From contig NZ_VSLD01000001.1 in the NCBI RefSeq assembly GCF_008107445.1, positions 806,001 to 870,000 on the forward strand: 64,000 nt of DNA. Reading direction: 5' to 3'. The first letter of the stretch is position 1. Each line of letters begins with the position of its first letter. A program made the translations under genes and the position numbers. Below the pieces are notes generated by a model. That model was not told the origin of the DNA. It saw only the letters and a list, made by a program, of their open reading frames with translations, and made no database searches. Positions 23,868 through 41,788 of the stretch are shown piece after piece. The DNA comes from Arthrobacter echini (GTDB lineage Bacteria > Actinomycetota > Actinomycetes > Actinomycetales > Micrococcaceae).

Positions 23868-24458
23868 TTAGAGCCGGAACATCTGCAGGGTGAAAAACGT
23901 AGTCGAGCTCAGAAGTAGTGCCAGTCCGAACCAGGTCGCCGGAAAAATTAGCCAATCCCCTGCGATGCCGCCGAAGCCAATGATCTGCAGCACTGTCACG
24001 CTGAAGGTAGTCCAGATCATCATCTGAACGCCGTTCTTATAGTGGCCTGGATGTTCTTCTCGGTGACTTCCCAACGCCATAGTTGTAGATCCTGGGGTAG
24101 CTGGTCAGGATCGCGAGTCCGATGATGGTCGCCAGGACTATGGAAGCAGGGATCAGTAGCTCCCAAGAGGGACCGTAACGACTGACTGAGCCATCGGCGG
24201 AAACTGCATCGGAACCTGCGCCGGCATCGACGGGATACGGGCGGCAATCCAGATGGTGTAACCGATGGAGGCGGCGAGGCTGCCGATGCGCAGGAATTGA
24301 TGCAGCGGGTCAAGGACGAATGCCGGCTGCGGACGGCTGCGCATCGTCGGATGATGAAGCACGCCCGCCTCGTCACGGAACGGTACGTCACGGCGTAGAG
24401 CGTCAACGTAGTTGCTGACCGGCTCACGATGTTTATCGTGCTGACTACTTTTGGGCAT
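23868..24458 (-). pseudogene. DUF1648-type membrane protein broken by about three frameshifts
   Basis: ATG 24458 has a strong AGGAGG site and opens MPKSSQHDKH. The frame runs through one helix to PAQVPMQF, then stops at 24153. Reading shifts near 24200 into another frame give ADGSVSRYGPSWELLIPASI, which restores the DUF1648 consensus (VP-x-HF-x-A-x-G-x-x-x-R-Y-G). A second shift near 24075 gives WEVTE. A third near 24060 gives EEHPGHYKNGVQMMIW and two final helices to the stop at 23868. The pieces read as one continuous protein, so this is a decayed gene or an assembly error in this stretch. Confidence 0.7.
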
Positions 24459-32396: not shown

Positions 32397-33776
32397 GGGA
32401 CTGTAAGAAAAACGGTGTGTGAGGGTCCGGCCTGATCCGAAAGGAGATGGCCGTGAACGACTTCACGACCGAAGCAACAGAGACGATGATCGATCCTGTG
32501 ACAGGAGAAATCATCGACCGGAAGGAAATCGCCGAGCAGCTACTCGCCCAAGCTAAGGCACAGGGTGTGAGCTTAATCGGGCCCGGCGGGCTGTTGAACC
32601 AGCTCACGAAGAACGTCCTCGAGACAGCGCTCGAGGCGGAGCTGACCGAGCACCTCGGACACGAGCACGGCGGGACGCCGATCGCGGCAAACATGCGCAA
32701 CGGGACGCGGCCGAAAACCGTGTTGACCGAGATCGGTCCGGTCGAGATTGAAGTCCCGCGGGACCGTGACGGATCGTTCGAACCGGTCATCGTGCCCAAA
32801 CGGAAGCGGCGCCTGGACGGCATCGATGAGATCGTCCTCTCCCTGTCCGCCCGCGGGCTGACCACGGGTGAGATCGCGGCGCACTTCGAAGAGGTCTATG
32901 GGGCGAGGGTCTCGAAGGACACGATCTCGAGGATCACGGAGAAGGTCGCCGGTGAGCTGGCCGAGTGGTCCGCCCGGCCGCTGGACCCGCTCTACCCGGT
33001 CCTGTTCGTGGACGCGATTGTGGTGAAAGTCCGCGACGGGCAGGTACGGAACACTCCGTTCTACGTGGTCATGGGCGTCACCACGAATGGGGAACGGGAC
33101 ATCCTCGGGATCTGGGCCGGCGACGGAGGCGAAGGTGCGAGGTTCTGGTTGCAGGTCTTCTCCGAGCTGAAGAACCGCGGCGTCGAAGACGTCCTCAGCG
33201 CCGTCTGCGACGGACTCAAGGGCCTGCCGGAGGCGATCACGACGACGTGGCAGCGAACGGTCGTGCAGCAATGCGTCGTGCACCTGATCCGCAACAGCTT
33301 CCGTTACGCCGGTCGCCAGCACCGCGACGGCATCGTGAAAGCCCTTAAGCCTGTTTACACGGCTCCGTCCGAGGCTGCGGCGAAGGACCGGTTCGAGGAG
33401 TTTGCCGCGGAGTGGGGTGCCAAGTATCCGGCGATCGTGAAGCTCTGGGAATCCGCGTGGGCGGAATTCGTGCCGTTCCTCGAATACGACGTGGAGATTC
33501 GCTTAGGTGATCTGCACGACGAACGCGATCGAGTCGATCAACGCCCGCTACCGGCGGGCCGTCAGAGCCAGGGGCCACTTCCCGAACGAGCAGGCAGCGC
33601 TGAAGTGTTTGTATCTCGTGACCCGGTCTCTTGACCCGACCGGCGGCGGCAGAGCACGCTGGGTCATCAGGTGGAAGCTGGCGCTAAACGCCTTCGCGAT
33701 CACCTTCGCGAACCGGTTCGAACGAACCAACCACTAATGAAACGCCGGACCCACACACCGTTTATCGGACAGACCC
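32397..33776 (+). mobile_element. IS256-family element, copy 3 (full length)
   Basis: About 1380 bp with imperfect inverted repeats of about 27 bp: left GGGACTGTAAGAAAAACGG from 32397, right end at 33776 reading GGGTCTGTCCGATAAACGG on the minus strand. No target duplication is seen (flanks TTCAAAGA and CGCTCTTC), so one flank has probably been rearranged. It has truncated the neighbouring minus-strand gene at 33777. Confidence 0.85.
32447..33737 (+). pseudogene. IS256 transposase with one frameshift before the catalytic Glu
   Basis: Mutator-type DDE transposase, complete apart from one shift. Frame 1 runs from ATG 32447 (or GTG 32453, better spaced from AAGGAG) through LFVDAIVVKVRDG (first Asp) and AVCDGLKGLPEA (second Asp) to DVEIR near 33500. 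There one extra base in CGCTTAGGTG moves VICTTNAIESINARYRR, which has the catalytic Glu, into another frame that continues to the stop at 33737. No slippery heptamer is present and IS256 elements do not normally use frameshifting, so the copy is presumably dead. A single reversion would repair it. Confidence 0.85.
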
Positions 33777-34353: not shown

Positions 34354-35037
34354 TCACTGGTCAGCAGGTGAGACACTGACTGGTTCTGATGGTCCAGGAT
34401 CGGCGACGTCCTGAAGAGGTGAAGGAATCGGTACGGGGTGGGTAGCTAGCCAGTCTCGGGCTTCCAGGTTGTTGATACGCCGGTAGAGGGTGGCCCTGGA
34501 CATGCCGAGATCCCGGGCCACGTGGGAGGCGGGTTGGCCTTGTTCGATAAGCCGGCGGGCGTTGCTGATCTGACTATCGGAGAACGTTTCCCGGCGTCCT
34601 CCCAAATCCATGCCGGCGGCGCGGCGTTTGGTGTTGGAGTCGTTGACGCGTTCTCGTTTGATCTCGAGTTCCATCTGGGCCAGGGCGGCCATGACGGTGA
34701 AGACCATGGACCCCATCGGGGTTCCGGTGTCGACGTTCCCGCCCCCTAGATTCAGCACCCGCAGGTTGATGTCTTGTCCGCGGAAGGTGTCGGCGAGGGT
34801 GAGCATGTTCGCCGTCGACCTGCCCAACCGGTCCAGGGTCGTCACGACCAGAGTGTCAGCCTCGTGGAGGGCTTCGAGGGCCCGGTCGAACTGCGGACGT
34901 CGGGAGAGCCCGCCGCTGATCCCGTGGTCGACATACACGTCATCGCGGCGGACCCCTGCTGCGATGAGGTCCTTGACCTGCCGGTCCGTGTCCTGCACTC
35001 GGGTCGATACTCTGGCGTATCCGATTAACCTACCCAC
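34354..35037 (-). CDS. Serine recombinase (resolvase/invertase family)
   Basis: A 227-residue small serine recombinase. The catalytic domain opens GRLIGYARVST with nucleophile S11, then YVDHGISGGLSRRPQFDRAL and VTTLDRLGRSTANM (catalytic Arg residues). A long helix follows, then a C-terminal helix-turn-helix QPASHVARDLGMSRATLYRRI. GTG 35037 follows AAGGAG by 5 bases. Size and layout fit a transposon resolvase or DNA invertase. No cognate transposase remains beside it. It is divergent from the SIR2-HerA operon and may be left over from the element that brought that operon. Confidence 0.92.
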   Translation of the reverse strand: MGRLIGYARVSTRVQDTDRQVKDLIAAGVRRDDVYVDHGISGGLSRRPQFDRALEALHEADTLVVTTLDRLGRSTANMLTLADTFRGQDINLRVLNLGGGNVDTGTPMGSMVFTVMAALAQMELEIKRERVNDSNTKRRAAGMDLGGRRETFSDSQISNARRLIEQGQPASHVARDLGMSRATLYRRINNLEARDWLATHPVPIPSPLQDVADPGPSEPVSVSPADQ

Positions 35038-35239: not shown

Positions 35240-35265
35240 GTATCGCGTACCTACGGTTGCGATAC
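35240..35265. promoter_or_regulatory. Dyad upstream of the SIR2-HerA operon
   Basis: GTATCGC (35240-35246) and GCGATAC (35259-35265) form perfect 7-bp arms with a 12-base spacer. An inner ACC-TAC-GGT extends the stem with small bulges. It lies 39 bases before the SIR2 start and could be an operator or a hairpin in the leader. The rest of 35038-35304 shows no gene. Confidence 0.4.
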
Positions 35266-35304
35266 GCCAGTCCCTGTCTTCGGAAATAAGCTACGGTCTG
35301 TTTT

Positions 35305-36453
35305 ATGCTCTCTCACGACGTCGCGTATTTTGCCGGTGGTCTCAGCGCTAAATTGGCTACAAGGTCGCGGCATGTCTGCACCTTCTTTGGTGCCGGAACT
35401 TCTAAAGCATGCGGCCTACCAGATGTTGCGCTCCTCACCACCAAGATCTTGGCTGGCCTGGAAGGTGAACAACTCGAGGCTTTCAAGCGCATCACCTCGT
35501 CCCGCAATCTTGAGCAGGCGCTGAGTCGGCTCAGGAGGGTTCAAGCTGTTGTCGAGGGGGCGGATGTTATCGACGGCCTCACTGGCGCTCAGGCTAAGGC
35601 GCTGGATGTAGCGATTTGTAAGCTCATCATTCAGGAGCTGTCGTCGGCTAAGGCTCACTTGGGTCCAGTCGACAAGTTGGTAGCTTGGGTCGAGCGCGCT
35701 GACTACGCACGGCCGGTCGAGCTTTTTACCGTCAATTACGATTGTCTTATAGAAACAGCACTGGAAGCGCGCGGAGTTCCATATTTCGATGGATTCGTAG
35801 GGTCTCTGAGAGCTCGATTTCGCACGGACATGGTCGAAGCCACGCAACTTGACTCTGACGTCTTACTGCCATCGTTTTACGCAAGACTTTGGAAGCTGCA
35901 CGGCTCCGTGAACTGGGCTTGGGATCAAACCCACCCAGCCGGCCAGGTTTTGAGATTAGGGAACCCCGTTCCTACCAATCAAATTGCCGCCATTTTTCCT
36001 TCCGACGCAAAATATGAGGAGTCGCGACGAATGCCTTTCGTTGTACTTCAAGATCGGTTGCGACGTGCACTTAATGAGCCGGAAACTCTGTTCCTCGTGT
36101 CGGGCTACTCTTGGGCAGATGAACATCTCAACGAGCTGTTCTTCGACGCAGCCGCGCGACGCCCACGCTCAGAGTTCATAGCCTTCTGCTATTCGGAAAT
36201 TCCTGCAGAACTTGCAGAAAAGGCCCGAAAGACGCCGAATCTTCAGGTCGTCACGCAAACCGAGGCCATCATCGGAGGTCTCCAGGCGCCCTGGGCAGAG
36301 CCGACAGAGGGCATAGCGCTGCCCCCCGACATTTGGGATGGCACTACTTGTCAACTAGGCGATTTTAGGCAATTAGCAGGCTTTTTAGCGCGCAGTTCTC
36401 CTGCCTGGAGCGTCGAGGAACAAGCAGGACTCAGCGGTCTAAATGTCAACTAG
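35305..36453 (+). CDS. SIR2-domain defence protein (SIR2-HerA system, NADase candidate)
   Basis: A 382-residue SIR2_2-type protein. The NAD-binding loop is FFGAGTSKACGLPD (residues 27-40). FTVNYDCLIETAL carries N144 and D146, and LWKLHGSVNW carries the catalytic-type H199. The C-terminal LVSGYSWADEHLNELFFDA is the usual closing block. In characterised defence systems such SIR2 proteins degrade NAD+ when partnered with an ATPase. The end overlaps herA by 11 bases. Codon use is less GC-rich than in the flanking core genes, indicating acquisition. ATG 35305 has no clear ribosome site. Confidence in fold is high; NADase activity is inferred. Confidence 0.88.
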   Translation: MLSHDVAYFAGGLSAKLATRSRHVCTFFGAGTSKACGLPDVALLTTKILAGLEGEQLEAFKRITSSRNLEQALSRLRRVQAVVEGADVIDGLTGAQAKALDVAICKLIIQELSSAKAHLGPVDKLVAWVERADYARPVELFTVNYDCLIETALEARGVPYFDGFVGSLRARFRTDMVEATQLDSDVLLPSFYARLWKLHGSVNWAWDQTHPAGQVLRLGNPVPTNQIAAIFPSDAKYEESRRMPFVVLQDRLRRALNEPETLFLVSGYSWADEHLNELFFDAAARRPRSEFIAFCYSEIPAELAEKARKTPNLQVVTQTEAIIGGLQAPWAEPTEGIALPPDIWDGTTCQLGDFRQLAGFLARSSPAWSVEEQAGLSGLNVN

Positions 36454-38206
36454 ACAAGAAACGTTTGTCGGGCGGGTCAAGCATGTGCTTGGCTCTCAAA
36501 TAACCGTGGAACTTGATCCTGGCCTTGCTGGGATTGCCCCAATTTATCGAGGACAACTCCAACAAATCGGGCAAATTGGCTCTCTGGTTCGGTTGCCTCA
36601 GGGGATGGTTGACCTGATCGCCACCGTCACTTTAGTTGGTATATCTGAACTGACGCCCGGTCCCGGCCCTCAAGATTTGTCGCCAGCGGGCGAAAGATGG
36701 TTGCAAGTTCAACTTCTCGGTGAGGTAGACAAGGGTACAAAGCAATTTAGGCGAGGTGTCGGCTCATATCCTGGTTTGGATGATCCAGTGCATTTCGCTC
36801 GCACTGAAGAACTGCAGGCGGTCTACCCTCACCCCTCGACATCACACATTCGCGTGGGCCGGTTGTCCGCTTCCGAAGCAGTTCCAGTTGCTCTCGACGT
36901 AAACAAACTAGTTGTTCGTCATTCGGCGGTAGTTGGTTCAACAGGATCAGGTAAGACCAGTGCAGTGGCTTCACTACTACAGAATTTCGCACAAGGGCAC
37001 TGGCCTGCGGCCAACATCGTAGTCATCGACAGTCACGGAGAGTACTCCCATGCACTCGCCAATCATGCATCGGTGAAGTCCGTACTTGGGGGAGAGAATG
37101 AGCGGCTCAACGTACCTTACTGGGCCCTTCCTGCCGAGGATATTTTACGAGCCTTCGCTGGTTCCACAGGCGGTCCTACGACTCAAAAAACGTGGTCAAC
37201 TTTGGTTGCTGAGGCAAGACGGCAGTTCAGTTTCGCGGCTTCATGGCTCCATCTCGATCCTGACGCAATTACCGCGGACACCCCTGTGCCCTTCGACATC
37301 TACGAAGTTTGGCTTCGTCTGGACTCAGAAAATAGGGAGACTCGACGAGCCAAGGGGGATGCCCTATCAGCGTGCATCGAGACCACCGGAGATGCCGCGA
37401 CACTAACTCCTGCTAGGTATACCCCTCACGGGCCGGCGGGAAGCCCGCCGATGCAGGGTCCGTGTTTCGGCCTGCATGGCAATACTCCGGAGCTACTTCG
37501 ACTCGGATTACTTGACCCTCGTCTAGCTTTTCTGCGAGAGCCATCAGGGACTATCGACGGACCCGATCCGCTTGTTGCGGCTGTGGATGCTTGGATTGGA
37601 GGAATACGTCCGGTTTCAGTCCTTGATTTCAATGGTGTTCCAGATACGGCTGCCGAACTTGCAATCGGAGTAATCTTAAAACTCCTCTTTGATGTGGCCA
37701 TAAGGACGCCGAACGGAACCGAAGGAATCGGCCGGCCCAGTCCCATTCTCGTTGTGTTGGAGGAGGCTCACCGATACCTCGGAGATAAAGCGGCCCCAAT
37801 TGCGCGTGACGCAGTCAATCGAATAGCTCGCGAAGGACGAAAGTATGGTGTTGGGCTCATGCTCGTTACCCAACGCCCCTCCGATCTTCCCGACACAGCC
37901 ATGGCGCAATGCGGCACAATCATTGCCCTGCGCTTAAGCAATAGCGCTGATCAGAGTAAGATTCGCACTGCTCTTCCAGACACTGTTGCAGGGCTGGCAG
38001 AAACGCTTCCATCTTTGAGGACAGGAGAGGCCATCATCAGCGGGGAAGCACTAGTGCTGCCGACGCGAGCTCTCCTCAATAGACCGGATCCACTTCCACT
38101 TGCTGAAGACCCGTCCCTTGATGCGTGGCGATCCCTTTGTGGCACAAGAGATGTACGACCAGCACTTGCCAAATGGCGAGGCATCTACGAGCAGGAGACA
38201 AAGTGA
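36443..38206 (+). CDS. HerA-family ATPase/translocase (SIR2-HerA system)
   Basis: A 587-residue FtsK/HerA-superfamily ATPase. An N-terminal beta-barrel HAS-like domain (ETFVGRVKHVLGSQITVEL) is followed by Walker A GSTGSGKTS (K171), VVIDSHGEY, Walker B ILVVLEEAHRYL (E440/E441) and REGRKYGVGLMLVTQRPSDL (sensor and Arg region). HerA rings move along DNA and, with SIR2 or nuclease partners, form large anti-phage complexes. The 11-base overlap with SIR2 and a GTGA overlap with the KTSC gene show a tightly coupled operon. No nurA gene is present, so this is not the repair-type HerA. Confidence 0.92.
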   Translation: MSTRQETFVGRVKHVLGSQITVELDPGLAGIAPIYRGQLQQIGQIGSLVRLPQGMVDLIATVTLVGISELTPGPGPQDLSPAGERWLQVQLLGEVDKGTKQFRRGVGSYPGLDDPVHFARTEELQAVYPHPSTSHIRVGRLSASEAVPVALDVNKLVVRHSAVVGSTGSGKTSAVASLLQNFAQGHWPAANIVVIDSHGEYSHALANHASVKSVLGGENERLNVPYWALPAEDILRAFAGSTGGPTTQKTWSTLVAEARRQFSFAASWLHLDPDAITADTPVPFDIYEVWLRLDSENRETRRAKGDALSACIETTGDAATLTPARYTPHGPAGSPPMQGPCFGLHGNTPELLRLGLLDPRLAFLREPSGTIDGPDPLVAAVDAWIGGIRPVSVLDFNGVPDTAAELAIGVILKLLFDVAIRTPNGTEGIGRPSPILVVLEEAHRYLGDKAAPIARDAVNRIAREGRKYGVGLMLVTQRPSDLPDTAMAQCGTIIALRLSNSADQSKIRTALPDTVAGLAETLPSLRTGEAIISGEALVLPTRALLNRPDPLPLAEDPSLDAWRSLCGTRDVRPALAKWRGIYEQETK

Positions 38207-38424
38207 CCCTAGACTGGCAGCCCGTGAATTCAAGTCGGATCGTTGCGGAAGCGTATGACTCGGAAGCAGAGACTATTTACGTGGAATTCCCGAAGGGAGG
38301 TGTTCAGTGGTGGTATGCGGCTTGCCCGCCGGAAGTTTGGGAACAGTTCACGGCTATTAATCAGTCCCGAGGCCAGTTCATTCACCAAATCCTTGACGCA
38401 AAGCCGAATGGTCGTTTCGCGTAA
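38203..38424 (+). CDS. KTSC-domain small protein, third gene of the SIR2-HerA operon
   Basis: A 73-residue protein made up almost entirely of a KTSC domain: PVNSSRIVAEAYDSEAET, YVEFPKGGVQWWYAACPPEVWEQF, and INQSRGQFIHQIL (the usual Ser-x-Gly-x-Phe-x-x-x-Ile end). KTSC domains are small, of unknown function, and sometimes linked to nucleic-acid proteins. GTG 38203 overlaps the herA stop (GTGA), with AGGAG at 38192-38196. Because it is coupled to herA it may modulate the complex, act as sensor, or limit toxicity. No role for KTSC in SIR2-HerA defence is known to me. Confidence 0.85.
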   Translation: MTLDWQPVNSSRIVAEAYDSEAETIYVEFPKGGVQWWYAACPPEVWEQFTAINQSRGQFIHQILDAKPNGRFA

Positions 38425-38756: not shown

Positions 38757-39503
38757 TCAGCTCGGTGTTTTCTCGCTGGTCGTGGTCCTGTTGCTCTCAA
38801 GTAGGAGTCGGAGTTGTTCCTTCACCTCGGCGAGTTCGTTTTGCAGAGCCTGGTCGCCGGATTCCACTTCAGCTGTTGTCTCCGCGGCGACAGATTCGAC
38901 GAGCCAGGATGCGAGAGTAGCGGTGACGACGCCGAGCACCGCGATACCTCCGATCATCAAAGCTGTTGCGATCAATCGGCCGACGATGGTGACCGGATAG
39001 AAGTCCCCGTATCCGACGGTAGTGATTGTCGCCATCGCCCACCACAGTGCGTCTCCCATCGAGGTGATGTTAGCGCCCGGCTCCATGCGTTCGATGTCCA
39101 GCACTGTCAGAGCCGCGACATAAGACAGGATCGCGACGGATCCGATGACATAGGTGACCAATCGTCCGCGTAAGGCGTGCCCGCCAACCTTGTGAAGGGT
39201 GCGTAGGAGTGTGATCAGACGCAGTAGACGCAGTGGACGAAGCATCGGCAATGCAACGATGAGCAGTTCGTGGATGTTACGGATGAACCAGCGGCGACGA
39301 TGCTCAGCCAGGTACAGGCGGACAGCATAGTCAACGAGGAATACGACCCAGATGATCCAGATGACAGTTAGGAGGATCACCGCCCAGGTGCCGTTGGGTT
39401 GCCCGATCACCTGCATGGAGTAGACAACCAGAAAGAGGATGGCTGCTCCGGCCAAGGGCCATTCGGCCCGGGCCTCCCACGACGCTTGACTCATGAGGGG
39501 CAT
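38757..39503 (-). CDS. Voltage-gated-type potassium channel
   Basis: A 248-residue six-helix ion channel. The S4-like helix RPLRLLRLITLLRTL has Arg at every third or fourth position. The pore helix and filter are WWAMATITTVGYGDFYP, the K+ selectivity signature. The C-terminal tail (GDQALQNELAEVKEQLRLLLES) is predicted to be a coiled coil that helps tetramers form. It moves K+ across the cytoplasmic membrane. ATG 39503 or the in-frame ATG three codons on could be used. It stands between the defence operon and the GIY-YIG gene, transcribed towards the operon. Confidence 0.9.
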   Translation of the reverse strand: MPLMSQASWEARAEWPLAGAAILFLVVYSMQVIGQPNGTWAVILLTVIWIIWVVFLVDYAVRLYLAEHRRRWFIRNIHELLIVALPMLRPLRLLRLITLLRTLHKVGGHALRGRLVTYVIGSVAILSYVAALTVLDIERMEPGANITSMGDALWWAMATITTVGYGDFYPVTIVGRLIATALMIGGIAVLGVVTATLASWLVESVAAETTAEVESGDQALQNELAEVKEQLRLLLESNRTTTSEKTPS

Positions 39504-39829: not shown

Positions 39830-41347
39830 TCAAGCTGTAGTGAGCTGAAGCGCCTTCCGTAGTTCGTTAGAAGTACTGAACTCGTCTGCCGGTGCGGCTT
39901 CTTGGTATTCGACGAGTTCGACTTGGTGCTCGACGAGGGCCTCTCGAACGGATGCGGGTGTTGCGTAGAAGTACTCACGGCGTAAGTTCACGAGATTGAC
40001 GCGTTGCGTCGCGAAGTGCTGGTGAAGCATCGTCTCGATTCCGACAGCGTCCTTTGAGAAGAAAAGCGCGTGAACGTCGAACAGGAAGGGGACAGATGCA
40101 TCGCCTAGTTCGCGCACGCGCTCCATGGGGTTCAGCCGTCGTGTCATGCCGATCTTCACGACGCCGTCACCGAATGCACCGAGATTTGAGATGACGTACA
40201 CATAGCCTGCTCGTGTGTTGAGGGCGTTGTCCTCGGCATCGGCGAGTTTTGCTTCTGCTTCTTCGAGCTGTTCCTGGACACGATGGACGCCTTCAAGATC
40301 GCCGGTGGCTTGAAGCTGGGCGAGGACGTTGGAGTAGTGATCTACTTCCTTCTTTTGCTTTGCCTTGAGTGCCTCCCATTCACGCTGAGCCTTCGCTGTC
40401 TCGCGTGCTTCAGCGCGTGCTTCGGCTTCAACCTGCTTCTGAATAGCCAATGCCTCGAGATGCCGGGCGGCCAGCTCTACTTCCTGCTCTCGAAGTCGAT
40501 GAAAGGCGCTGGTGATCTGCAACCCGATCATGGTTCCTCGCTTTGCTATCTGCTCACGTGACTTCTCGAGTCGGGCGCGAGCAGTGTCGAGGTTCCCTGC
40601 TTTGACGGTTTTGACGCAGTTCTCGGCCTCAGCGTTGTAGGCCCTTAGCAGCAGCGCAGAAAGGTCGCGCACAAACTTATCGCCCTCCCGGGCTGATCCG
40701 TTGAACGTGAACCCGGAGACCGTGGTCACGGCGGTCTTCTCACGCAGCTTGTTCTTGATGTGAGCACGGACGGTAGCTAGTTCGTCGGCAAGCTTCACGG
40801 ACGTCTCGGCCGGGTGTTCATAATCGTAGAAACCGACGTTGTGCCGCTTTGCTACCTGGCGAACGTCTAGTACGTCGTTGCGCACGACAGCGAGCTGGGC
40901 TTCCGCGGCGGCTAAGTCTCGCTTAGCTTTGGCGATACTAGCGGTCAGTTCCGCGTCGTGGCGTTCTTTGGCCAAGCTGTCCATGACGCCGTACCGATTG
41001 AGGTCGGCAAGCATCTGGGCATTGGCGCGGTACACCTCATCGGCGTACTGCTTCAGTCCCTTCGCCGGAACAGGAGGTGCGCCCATGTTTGTCCGATAAG
41101 TCTTCTCAGCGCTCACACTGGTTGATTCGGCGGATACACCAAAGGCTTGCCGGTACTGCTTAACGACGTTCAAAAGGATCCAGATCACGCCTGCGGCAAG
41201 CAACAGACTGAAAAGGAACCCTTTCGTGGGTAGGAGCGCGATGAGAAGAAGTAACGCGCAAGCCACCCAGACATGGCGAGTGAATCCCGCGGGTCGCTTT
41301 TTTGGCTGAGCGGGTTCGGGCGACGCACCGGATGAGAAGTTGGACAT
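39830..41347 (-). CDS. Membrane-anchored DUF4041/GIY-YIG (T5orf172) protein
   Basis: A 505-residue protein. Two hydrophobic helices lie at about 28-63 (HVWVACALLLLIALLPTKGFLF and LLLAAGVIWILLNVV). A long charged coiled-coil region with a DUF4041-like part follows (AYNAEAENCVKTVKAGNLDTA; HLEALAIQKQVEAEARAEARE). The C-terminal GIY-YIG-type domain has YVYVISNLG, VVKIGMTRRLNPMERV, a Glu in GIETMLHQHF and the REYFYATP end. DUF4041-T5orf172 proteins are common in prophages and defence islands. Joining a nuclease-like domain to membrane helices suggests DNA contact at the membrane, by inference. ATG 41347 follows GGGGGAA. Confidence 0.85.
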   Translation of the reverse strand: MSNFSSGASPEPAQPKKRPAGFTRHVWVACALLLLIALLPTKGFLFSLLLAAGVIWILLNVVKQYRQAFGVSAESTSVSAEKTYRTNMGAPPVPAKGLKQYADEVYRANAQMLADLNRYGVMDSLAKERHDAELTASIAKAKRDLAAAEAQLAVVRNDVLDVRQVAKRHNVGFYDYEHPAETSVKLADELATVRAHIKNKLREKTAVTTVSGFTFNGSAREGDKFVRDLSALLLRAYNAEAENCVKTVKAGNLDTARARLEKSREQIAKRGTMIGLQITSAFHRLREQEVELAARHLEALAIQKQVEAEARAEARETAKAQREWEALKAKQKKEVDHYSNVLAQLQATGDLEGVHRVQEQLEEAEAKLADAEDNALNTRAGYVYVISNLGAFGDGVVKIGMTRRLNPMERVRELGDASVPFLFDVHALFFSKDAVGIETMLHQHFATQRVNLVNLRREYFYATPASVREALVEHQVELVEYQEAAPADEFSTSNELRKALQLTTA

Positions 41348-41505: not shown

Positions 41506-41788
41506 CTGCCGTGAGCTGGCCACGTCGACCTACTCACGGCACGCGCCTCAATTTCCGTAAGTCCGTTCGATTTAATGCCCGGTGCACGTCCAGATGTGAA
41601 ACATGGAAACGAACCGGCGCCCACTTCGAGTGCCTCATAACCTACAGGTTTCCGAGACAGGCATTCATCTCCGTCGAAGCCGAAGAGCTTCCGCTAGGTA
41701 TAGGGGCGTCGACTGTCTCAGAAAGTCGCCTCACCGTGAAGTGTCTCAGCGCTCCTGTCGCTAGGACTTTGTGGGACGGATCGCTGAG

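Follow-up and report, generated by a model that had tools for sequence, protein, structure and literature searches.

The window analysed here, a stretch of 64,000 nucleotides of Arthrobacter echini DNA, contains a compact operon of three plus-strand genes lying beside a serine recombinase gene:

34354-35037, minus strand, serine recombinase, beside the operon
35305-36453, plus strand, SIR2-family NADase, 382 aa (ATG start at 35305; GAGTS, N144-Y-D146, KLHG with H199)
36443-38206, plus strand, HerA ATPase/translocase, 587 aa (intact Walker A with K171 and Walker B with E440/E441; DUF87 and HerA_C)
38193-38197, plus strand, AGGAG inside herA, ribosome-binding-site-like as read from the sequence, 5 bases before the GTG of the KTSC gene
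38203-38424, plus strand, KTSC-domain protein, 73 aa, the third gene (GTG start at 38203; GTGA overlap with herA)

The SIR2 and HerA genes are joined by an 11-base overlap and the HerA and KTSC genes by GTGA, as an earlier note had described from its reading of the open reading frames; the end which it gave for the operon, 38424, fits, but the start it gave, 35240, precedes the ATG of SIR2 by 65 bases. An alternative, longer in-frame start of the KTSC gene exists at 38125. The catalytic motifs named in that note are present and intact, with GAGTS at residues 29–33 of the window's SIR2 protein, and N144, Y145, D146 and H199 of SIR2 together with K171, E440 and E441 of HerA are identical in 91 of 91 aligned loci. 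Pfam models match the first gene as SIR2_2 (PF13289; 53.3 bits, cut-off 24.5), the second as DUF87 (102 bits, cut-off 23.2) and HerA_C (51.6 bits, cut-off 22), and the third as KTSC (PF13619), again in agreement with the note, at 29.9 bits over a gathering cut-off of 25, a modest score because the KTSC branch of the window is divergent. The window's KTSC protein, the single KTSC found in the whole A. echini genome, is 70, 67 and 63% identical to the KTSC genes found at the corresponding position of three plasmid relatives (L010, L011, and L012); in the last of these, from Natrinema zhouii, two ADP-ribosylglycohydrolase open reading frames come after the KTSC gene (L012:5762-6854). PADLOC models recognize SIR2 (PDLC04093, 362.6 bits) and HerA (PDLC04105, 425 bits), and no model of PADLOC-DB 2.0.0 matches the KTSC protein of the window, so that scans with this database would list the system as two genes. 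The window's SIR2 misses the cut-off of the NCBIfam family SIR2_antiphage (NF042942, 50.9 versus 500 bits) and its HerA those of HerA_antiphage (NF042943, 175.1 versus 800 bits; NF042944, 207.4 versus 850 bits). The SIR2-HerA-KTSC operon with intact catalytic residues is confirmed as real, and the earlier note was right to describe it as a defence operon of SIR2 and HerA to which a KTSC gene is coupled.

The operon is AT-richer than the surrounding DNA, as previously remarked, with a GC content of 0.54–0.56 at 35–39 kb versus about 0.66–0.73 outside 20–42 kb. In a close relative (G010), which is 95% identical to the window over 17–20 kb, the conserved flanks stop at window position 23929 and resume at 41644, and the slot between them carries different cargo, amounting in G010 to about 11 kb of other genes (L183:1674-12908), among them an rve-type transposase, an Rce1-like protein, SdpA, an HTTM-like protein, and a resolvase. 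The same variable slot of the window holds a second defence-like gene, encoding a T5orf172/DUF4041 protein (39830–41347, minus strand; PADLOC PD-Lambda-1, 327 bits), and the suggestion of mobile defence in the earlier note, which had also pointed to the adjacent recombinase, is supported by the slot and by this gene. The PD-Lambda-1-like gene was rejected as a part of the operon, being on the opposite strand with a potassium-channel-like gene (Ion_trans_2, 57 bits; 38757–39503, minus strand) intervening. The island neighbours were likewise rejected as extra parts of the system, nine open reading frames at 18.9–42.6 kb having no PADLOC match. A Mutator-family transposase (32447–33737, plus strand) seems to be frameshifted, its end appearing by eye to continue in an open reading frame at 33507–33737. 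The segment 43247–46679 of the window, which includes thi genes, is also without a match in G010.

The association of KTSC with HerA was surveyed with KTSC and HerA profiles built from 11 loci; against genome contigs the HerA profile found at least 566 relatives, and the survey retained the 80 best of them. KTSC is present at HerA in 79 of these best 80 loci, as the next gene in 74 and fused to the HerA C-terminus in five, and the lone exception among the 80 (L043) has a truncated HerA, its end replaced by unrelated sequence, in a genome without KTSC. Pfam's KTSC model concurs in 29 of the 30 genomes given to it from the best 80 of at least 566, and within 765 kb of these 80 genome loci all 79 KTSC matches sit at HerA. 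SIR2 lies directly upstream in all 73 of the KTSC-bearing loci in the same set of 80 that have enough upstream DNA, with no non-SIR2 effector of a HerA-KTSC pair among the 73. Across 100 KTSC-bearing loci, KTSC is fused in six (L033, L036, L037, L040, L069, and L104), every time to the HerA C-terminus and in none of the six to SIR2, and the 94 unfused pairs are spaced by −29 to +42 bases, with 36 of them overlapping or abutting. The linkage extends, among the loci surveyed, over ten named bacterial phyla and one haloarchaeal plasmid. On plasmids, KTSC accompanies 12 of 13 SIR2-HerA loci, the remaining one being split, and the ten best-ranked plasmid relatives all have a KTSC gene right behind HerA; KTSC is present at the Paracoccus zhejiangensis plasmid locus, and in an unannotated Tritonibacter record the KTSC match begins 93 bases past the HerA match. 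In Agrobacterium pusense, a short HerA beside SIR2 lies about 10 kb from a second, ATP-binding-protein fragment that is immediately followed by KTSC; the interval contains an IS481 transposase and a recombinase, and we take the arrangement for an operon that an insertion has split. KTSC is not annotated at two distant plasmid HerA genes that lack SIR2, and the plasmid operon of E. coli C5, checked for carriage in E. coli, matches one of 5,426 genomes, which is itself.

Across the window's phylum, 15 of 396 genomes contain a KTSC of any kind, and it lies directly after HerA in six of these 15, so the count of KTSC genes behind herA proposed in the earlier note (79 of the best 80 of at least 566 loci) comes out far above chance. 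In a second phylum KTSC occurs in 39 of 299 genomes, and among 30 loci listed five are HerA-linked, including that of G559, a genome chosen because it carries the system. KTSC is a near-constant component of one branch of SIR2-HerA. That it merely hitchhikes beside HerA with no role in defence is barely credible, because the linkage is near-constant, spans this range of phyla and includes fusions.

Viral HerA loci mark the edge of the branch. KTSC is present in 11 of 60 (one fused, L104), in all of which HerA scores at least 720 bits to the profile, and the other 49 encode a more distant HerA (below 400 bits) with no adjoining KTSC, 20 of the 49 having SIR2; Pfam's KTSC model gave a single match in these 49 whole viral records, in L145, on the other strand and about 3 kb from HerA. 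In a tree of 79 HerAs, in which the KTSC-less rows are all viral, a single branch (SH-aLRT 99) sets the 36 KTSC-bearing rows apart from all others, versus a mean of 26 changes in the shuffled control, and four KTSC-less SIR2-HerA loci are the nearest rows to the KTSC branch. Two cellular KTSC negatives (G147 and G293) have weak SIR2 matches and no KTSC.

The closest solved chains are 8w9l for SIR2 (172.7 bits, next 49.4) and 8wiv for HerA (365 bits, next 194.7), and PDB entries 8wld, 8woc, 8wod, and 8wof contain both the 8wiv-type HerA and this SIR2. In the 8wiv HerA, residues 628–696 match the KTSC profile drawn from 11 genes with an E-value of 1.7e-26; since this chain has 696 residues, of which 7–606 match the HerA profile, a KTSC domain forms its end. 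By sequence comparison, the window operon is thus assigned to the known SIR2-HerA anti-phage kind, in the branch of 8wld, and would be expected to deplete NAD and to protect against phage. This complex is the closest solved likeness of the SIR2 and HerA of the window, KTSC included, and differs in that KTSC is fused to HerA in 8wiv whereas it is a separate overlapping gene in the window. We take the 8w9l/8wiv/8wld series to be the Sir2-HerA of Paenibacillus sp. 453MF from Liao 2024, the abstract of which reportedly describes HerA as a split spiral stabilized by a C-terminal extension. Other solved HerA chains (8j4u, 8ziq, 9c1m, 8xau, and 8yho) give no KTSC match at E-values up to 10; along with DUF4297-HerA (PMC11291478), they resemble the 8wld complex in that a hexamer of HerA and an effector ring form a stack, but the HerAs of these five are more distant from that of the window. 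The KTSC gene was not as undescribed as the earlier note had supposed, for the 8wiv HerA ends in this domain and a 2022 paper (PMC9503650) mentions HerA coupled to a KTSC gene in a variant in which an endoDNase replaces the sirtuin. That variant shares with the window the coupling of HerA with a KTSC gene and differs in its effector, which in the window is SIR2, as in its 73 of 73 relatives with enough upstream DNA.

KTSC has been called DNA-binding in PMC9503650 and RNA-binding in PMC7824862. The net charge of HerA-linked KTSCs has a median of −2 and is positive in 5 of 100, and in two phylum samples 11 HerA-linked KTSCs have a median of −4 (one positive) versus +3 for 33 unlinked ones (27 positive; Mann-Whitney p 1.3e-5, kinship ignored). 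In the KTSC tree, which is built on short sequences and in which some of the forks concerned are weakly supported, the unlinked member is the more positive in four of four side-by-side placements with linked ones (L194 by L037; L190 by L042; L165 by L073; and L160 with L196 by L105, L019, and L186). The acidity of HerA-linked KTSCs, as compared with mostly basic unlinked ones, argues against plain nucleic-acid binding, and they are probably not general nucleic-acid binders; of the roles proposed earlier, DNA or RNA sensing is weakened by this result and gating of the complex is favoured. Their charge also bears on the proposal for HerA-sirtuin loci, made in PMC9503650, that SIR2 might ADP-ribosylate DNA rather than deplete NAD, with KTSC delivering the DNA in a restriction-like manner. 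This is very improbable: the KTSC of the window is acidic, and N-Y-D and H, intact in 91 of 91 loci, are residues of the type whose NADase role was shown by mutation in the related SIR2 protein DSR2, according to PMC11263360.

In the same KTSC tree the HerA-linked members do not form one group; the tree requires 10 switches between linked and unlinked, of which supported branches force at least four, and KTSC may therefore have been exchanged repeatedly for copies from elsewhere. The idea that KTSC was recruited just once agrees with the HerA tree and is contradicted by the short KTSC tree, and was dropped. The mixing of linked and unlinked members, as might be expected of an exchangeable recognition part, a varied KTSC sequence (mean column identity 36%), the nucleic-acid-binding labels, and the presence of a KTSC homologue in 43 of 50,697 phage records, which could act as trigger or decoy, all favour KTSC as a sensor that would trigger HerA-SIR2 on binding either a protein of the phage or some unusual nucleic acid. 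We regard such a sensor as unlikely, the basic charge typical of unlinked KTSCs being lost in the HerA-linked ones, and its fuller form, in which the HerA ring would carry KTSC as an interchangeable sensing module and KTSC proteins of phages would be its trigger or decoy, as distinctly doubtful.

KTSC also occurs in other settings. In a haloarchaeal plasmid operon (L176:180-3213), another conflict-like setting, an overlapping KTSC gene accompanies E2/UBC and ThiF, and ThiF overlaps a KTSC match on two further plasmids. The KTSC gene of Caulobacter phage Seuss lies near rIIA/rIIB (L175:2501-2713), and a 564-aa open frame ending in KTSC has no other Pfam match (L160:1-1692).

The explanation that we favour, with rather better than even confidence, places KTSC on the C-terminal face of the HerA hexamer as a subunit in 1:1 ratio, where it would help to set the shape of the ring and the entry of DNA in a SIR2-HerA complex that depletes NAD. 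SIR2 would be the NADase of an abortive-infection system, switched on by the docked HerA, a hexameric DNA motor, and KTSC would be a subunit of HerA and not a separate effector. Since the genes overlap or are fused, KTSC is presumably made 1:1 with HerA, giving six copies per hexamer. Its position is borrowed from DUF4297-HerA, in which, according to PMC11291478, N-terminal HAS domains bind the effector, the HerA ring admits DNA through its open base, HerA on its own adopts the form of an idle split spiral, and a C-terminal hook grips the adjacent subunit. By this analogy, KTSC would sit on the C-terminal ring face, away from SIR2 and near the DNA entry, where it could staple adjacent HerA subunits and so govern the switch between idle and active rings, and/or narrow the entry; the fusions solely to HerA fit an action between ring subunits. 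Against the staple counts the statement, in a 2025 review citing Liao 2024 (PMC12198126), that a C-terminal hook like that of DUF4297-HerA was not seen in Sir2-HerA, and the scatter of HerA-linked members over the KTSC tree counts against this explanation as a whole.

Co-variation was explored as evidence for HerA as the partner of KTSC. All three proteins are co-inherited (r 0.65–0.88; none of 2000 permutations as high), and over all 82 loci a distance-matrix test gave KTSC a partial r of 0.51 with HerA versus −0.05 with SIR2. The values become 0.15 and 0.22, respectively, when the window's branch is left out, and the test was dropped as proof because the signal vanishes in this way, being driven by one deep split. 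Within the window's branch (n = 12) KTSC distances follow SIR2 more than HerA (partial r 0.54 versus −0.23, with very wide subset ranges), which, together with the translation of KTSC along with a toxic pair, would suit an antitoxin-like inhibitor that restrains NAD loss by SIR2. Such a restraint is nevertheless quite improbable, given that all six fusions are to HerA and none to SIR2, that ktsc comes last in the operon, and that the solved complex forms from SIR2 and a HerA with fused KTSC.

The interpretation given in the earlier note is thus partly supported. In a literature search, with subscription papers outside its reach, SIR2-HerA-KTSC was nowhere described as a system of three parts. 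What is new is that one branch has KTSC almost without exception, that this protein is the same domain as the one at the C-terminus of the solved HerA, and that it is acidic. The 2025 review (PMC12198126) counts the activation of SIR2-HerA among the unclear points, and KTSC, by its constancy and occasional fusion to HerA, is a ready candidate regulator. If KTSC were the doubtful sensor module, the two-gene picture of this SIR2-HerA branch would have overlooked a subunit for recognition, which the solved member conceals in the guise of a C-terminal domain. Expressing sir2 and herA alone from members with a separate ktsc would omit a subunit.
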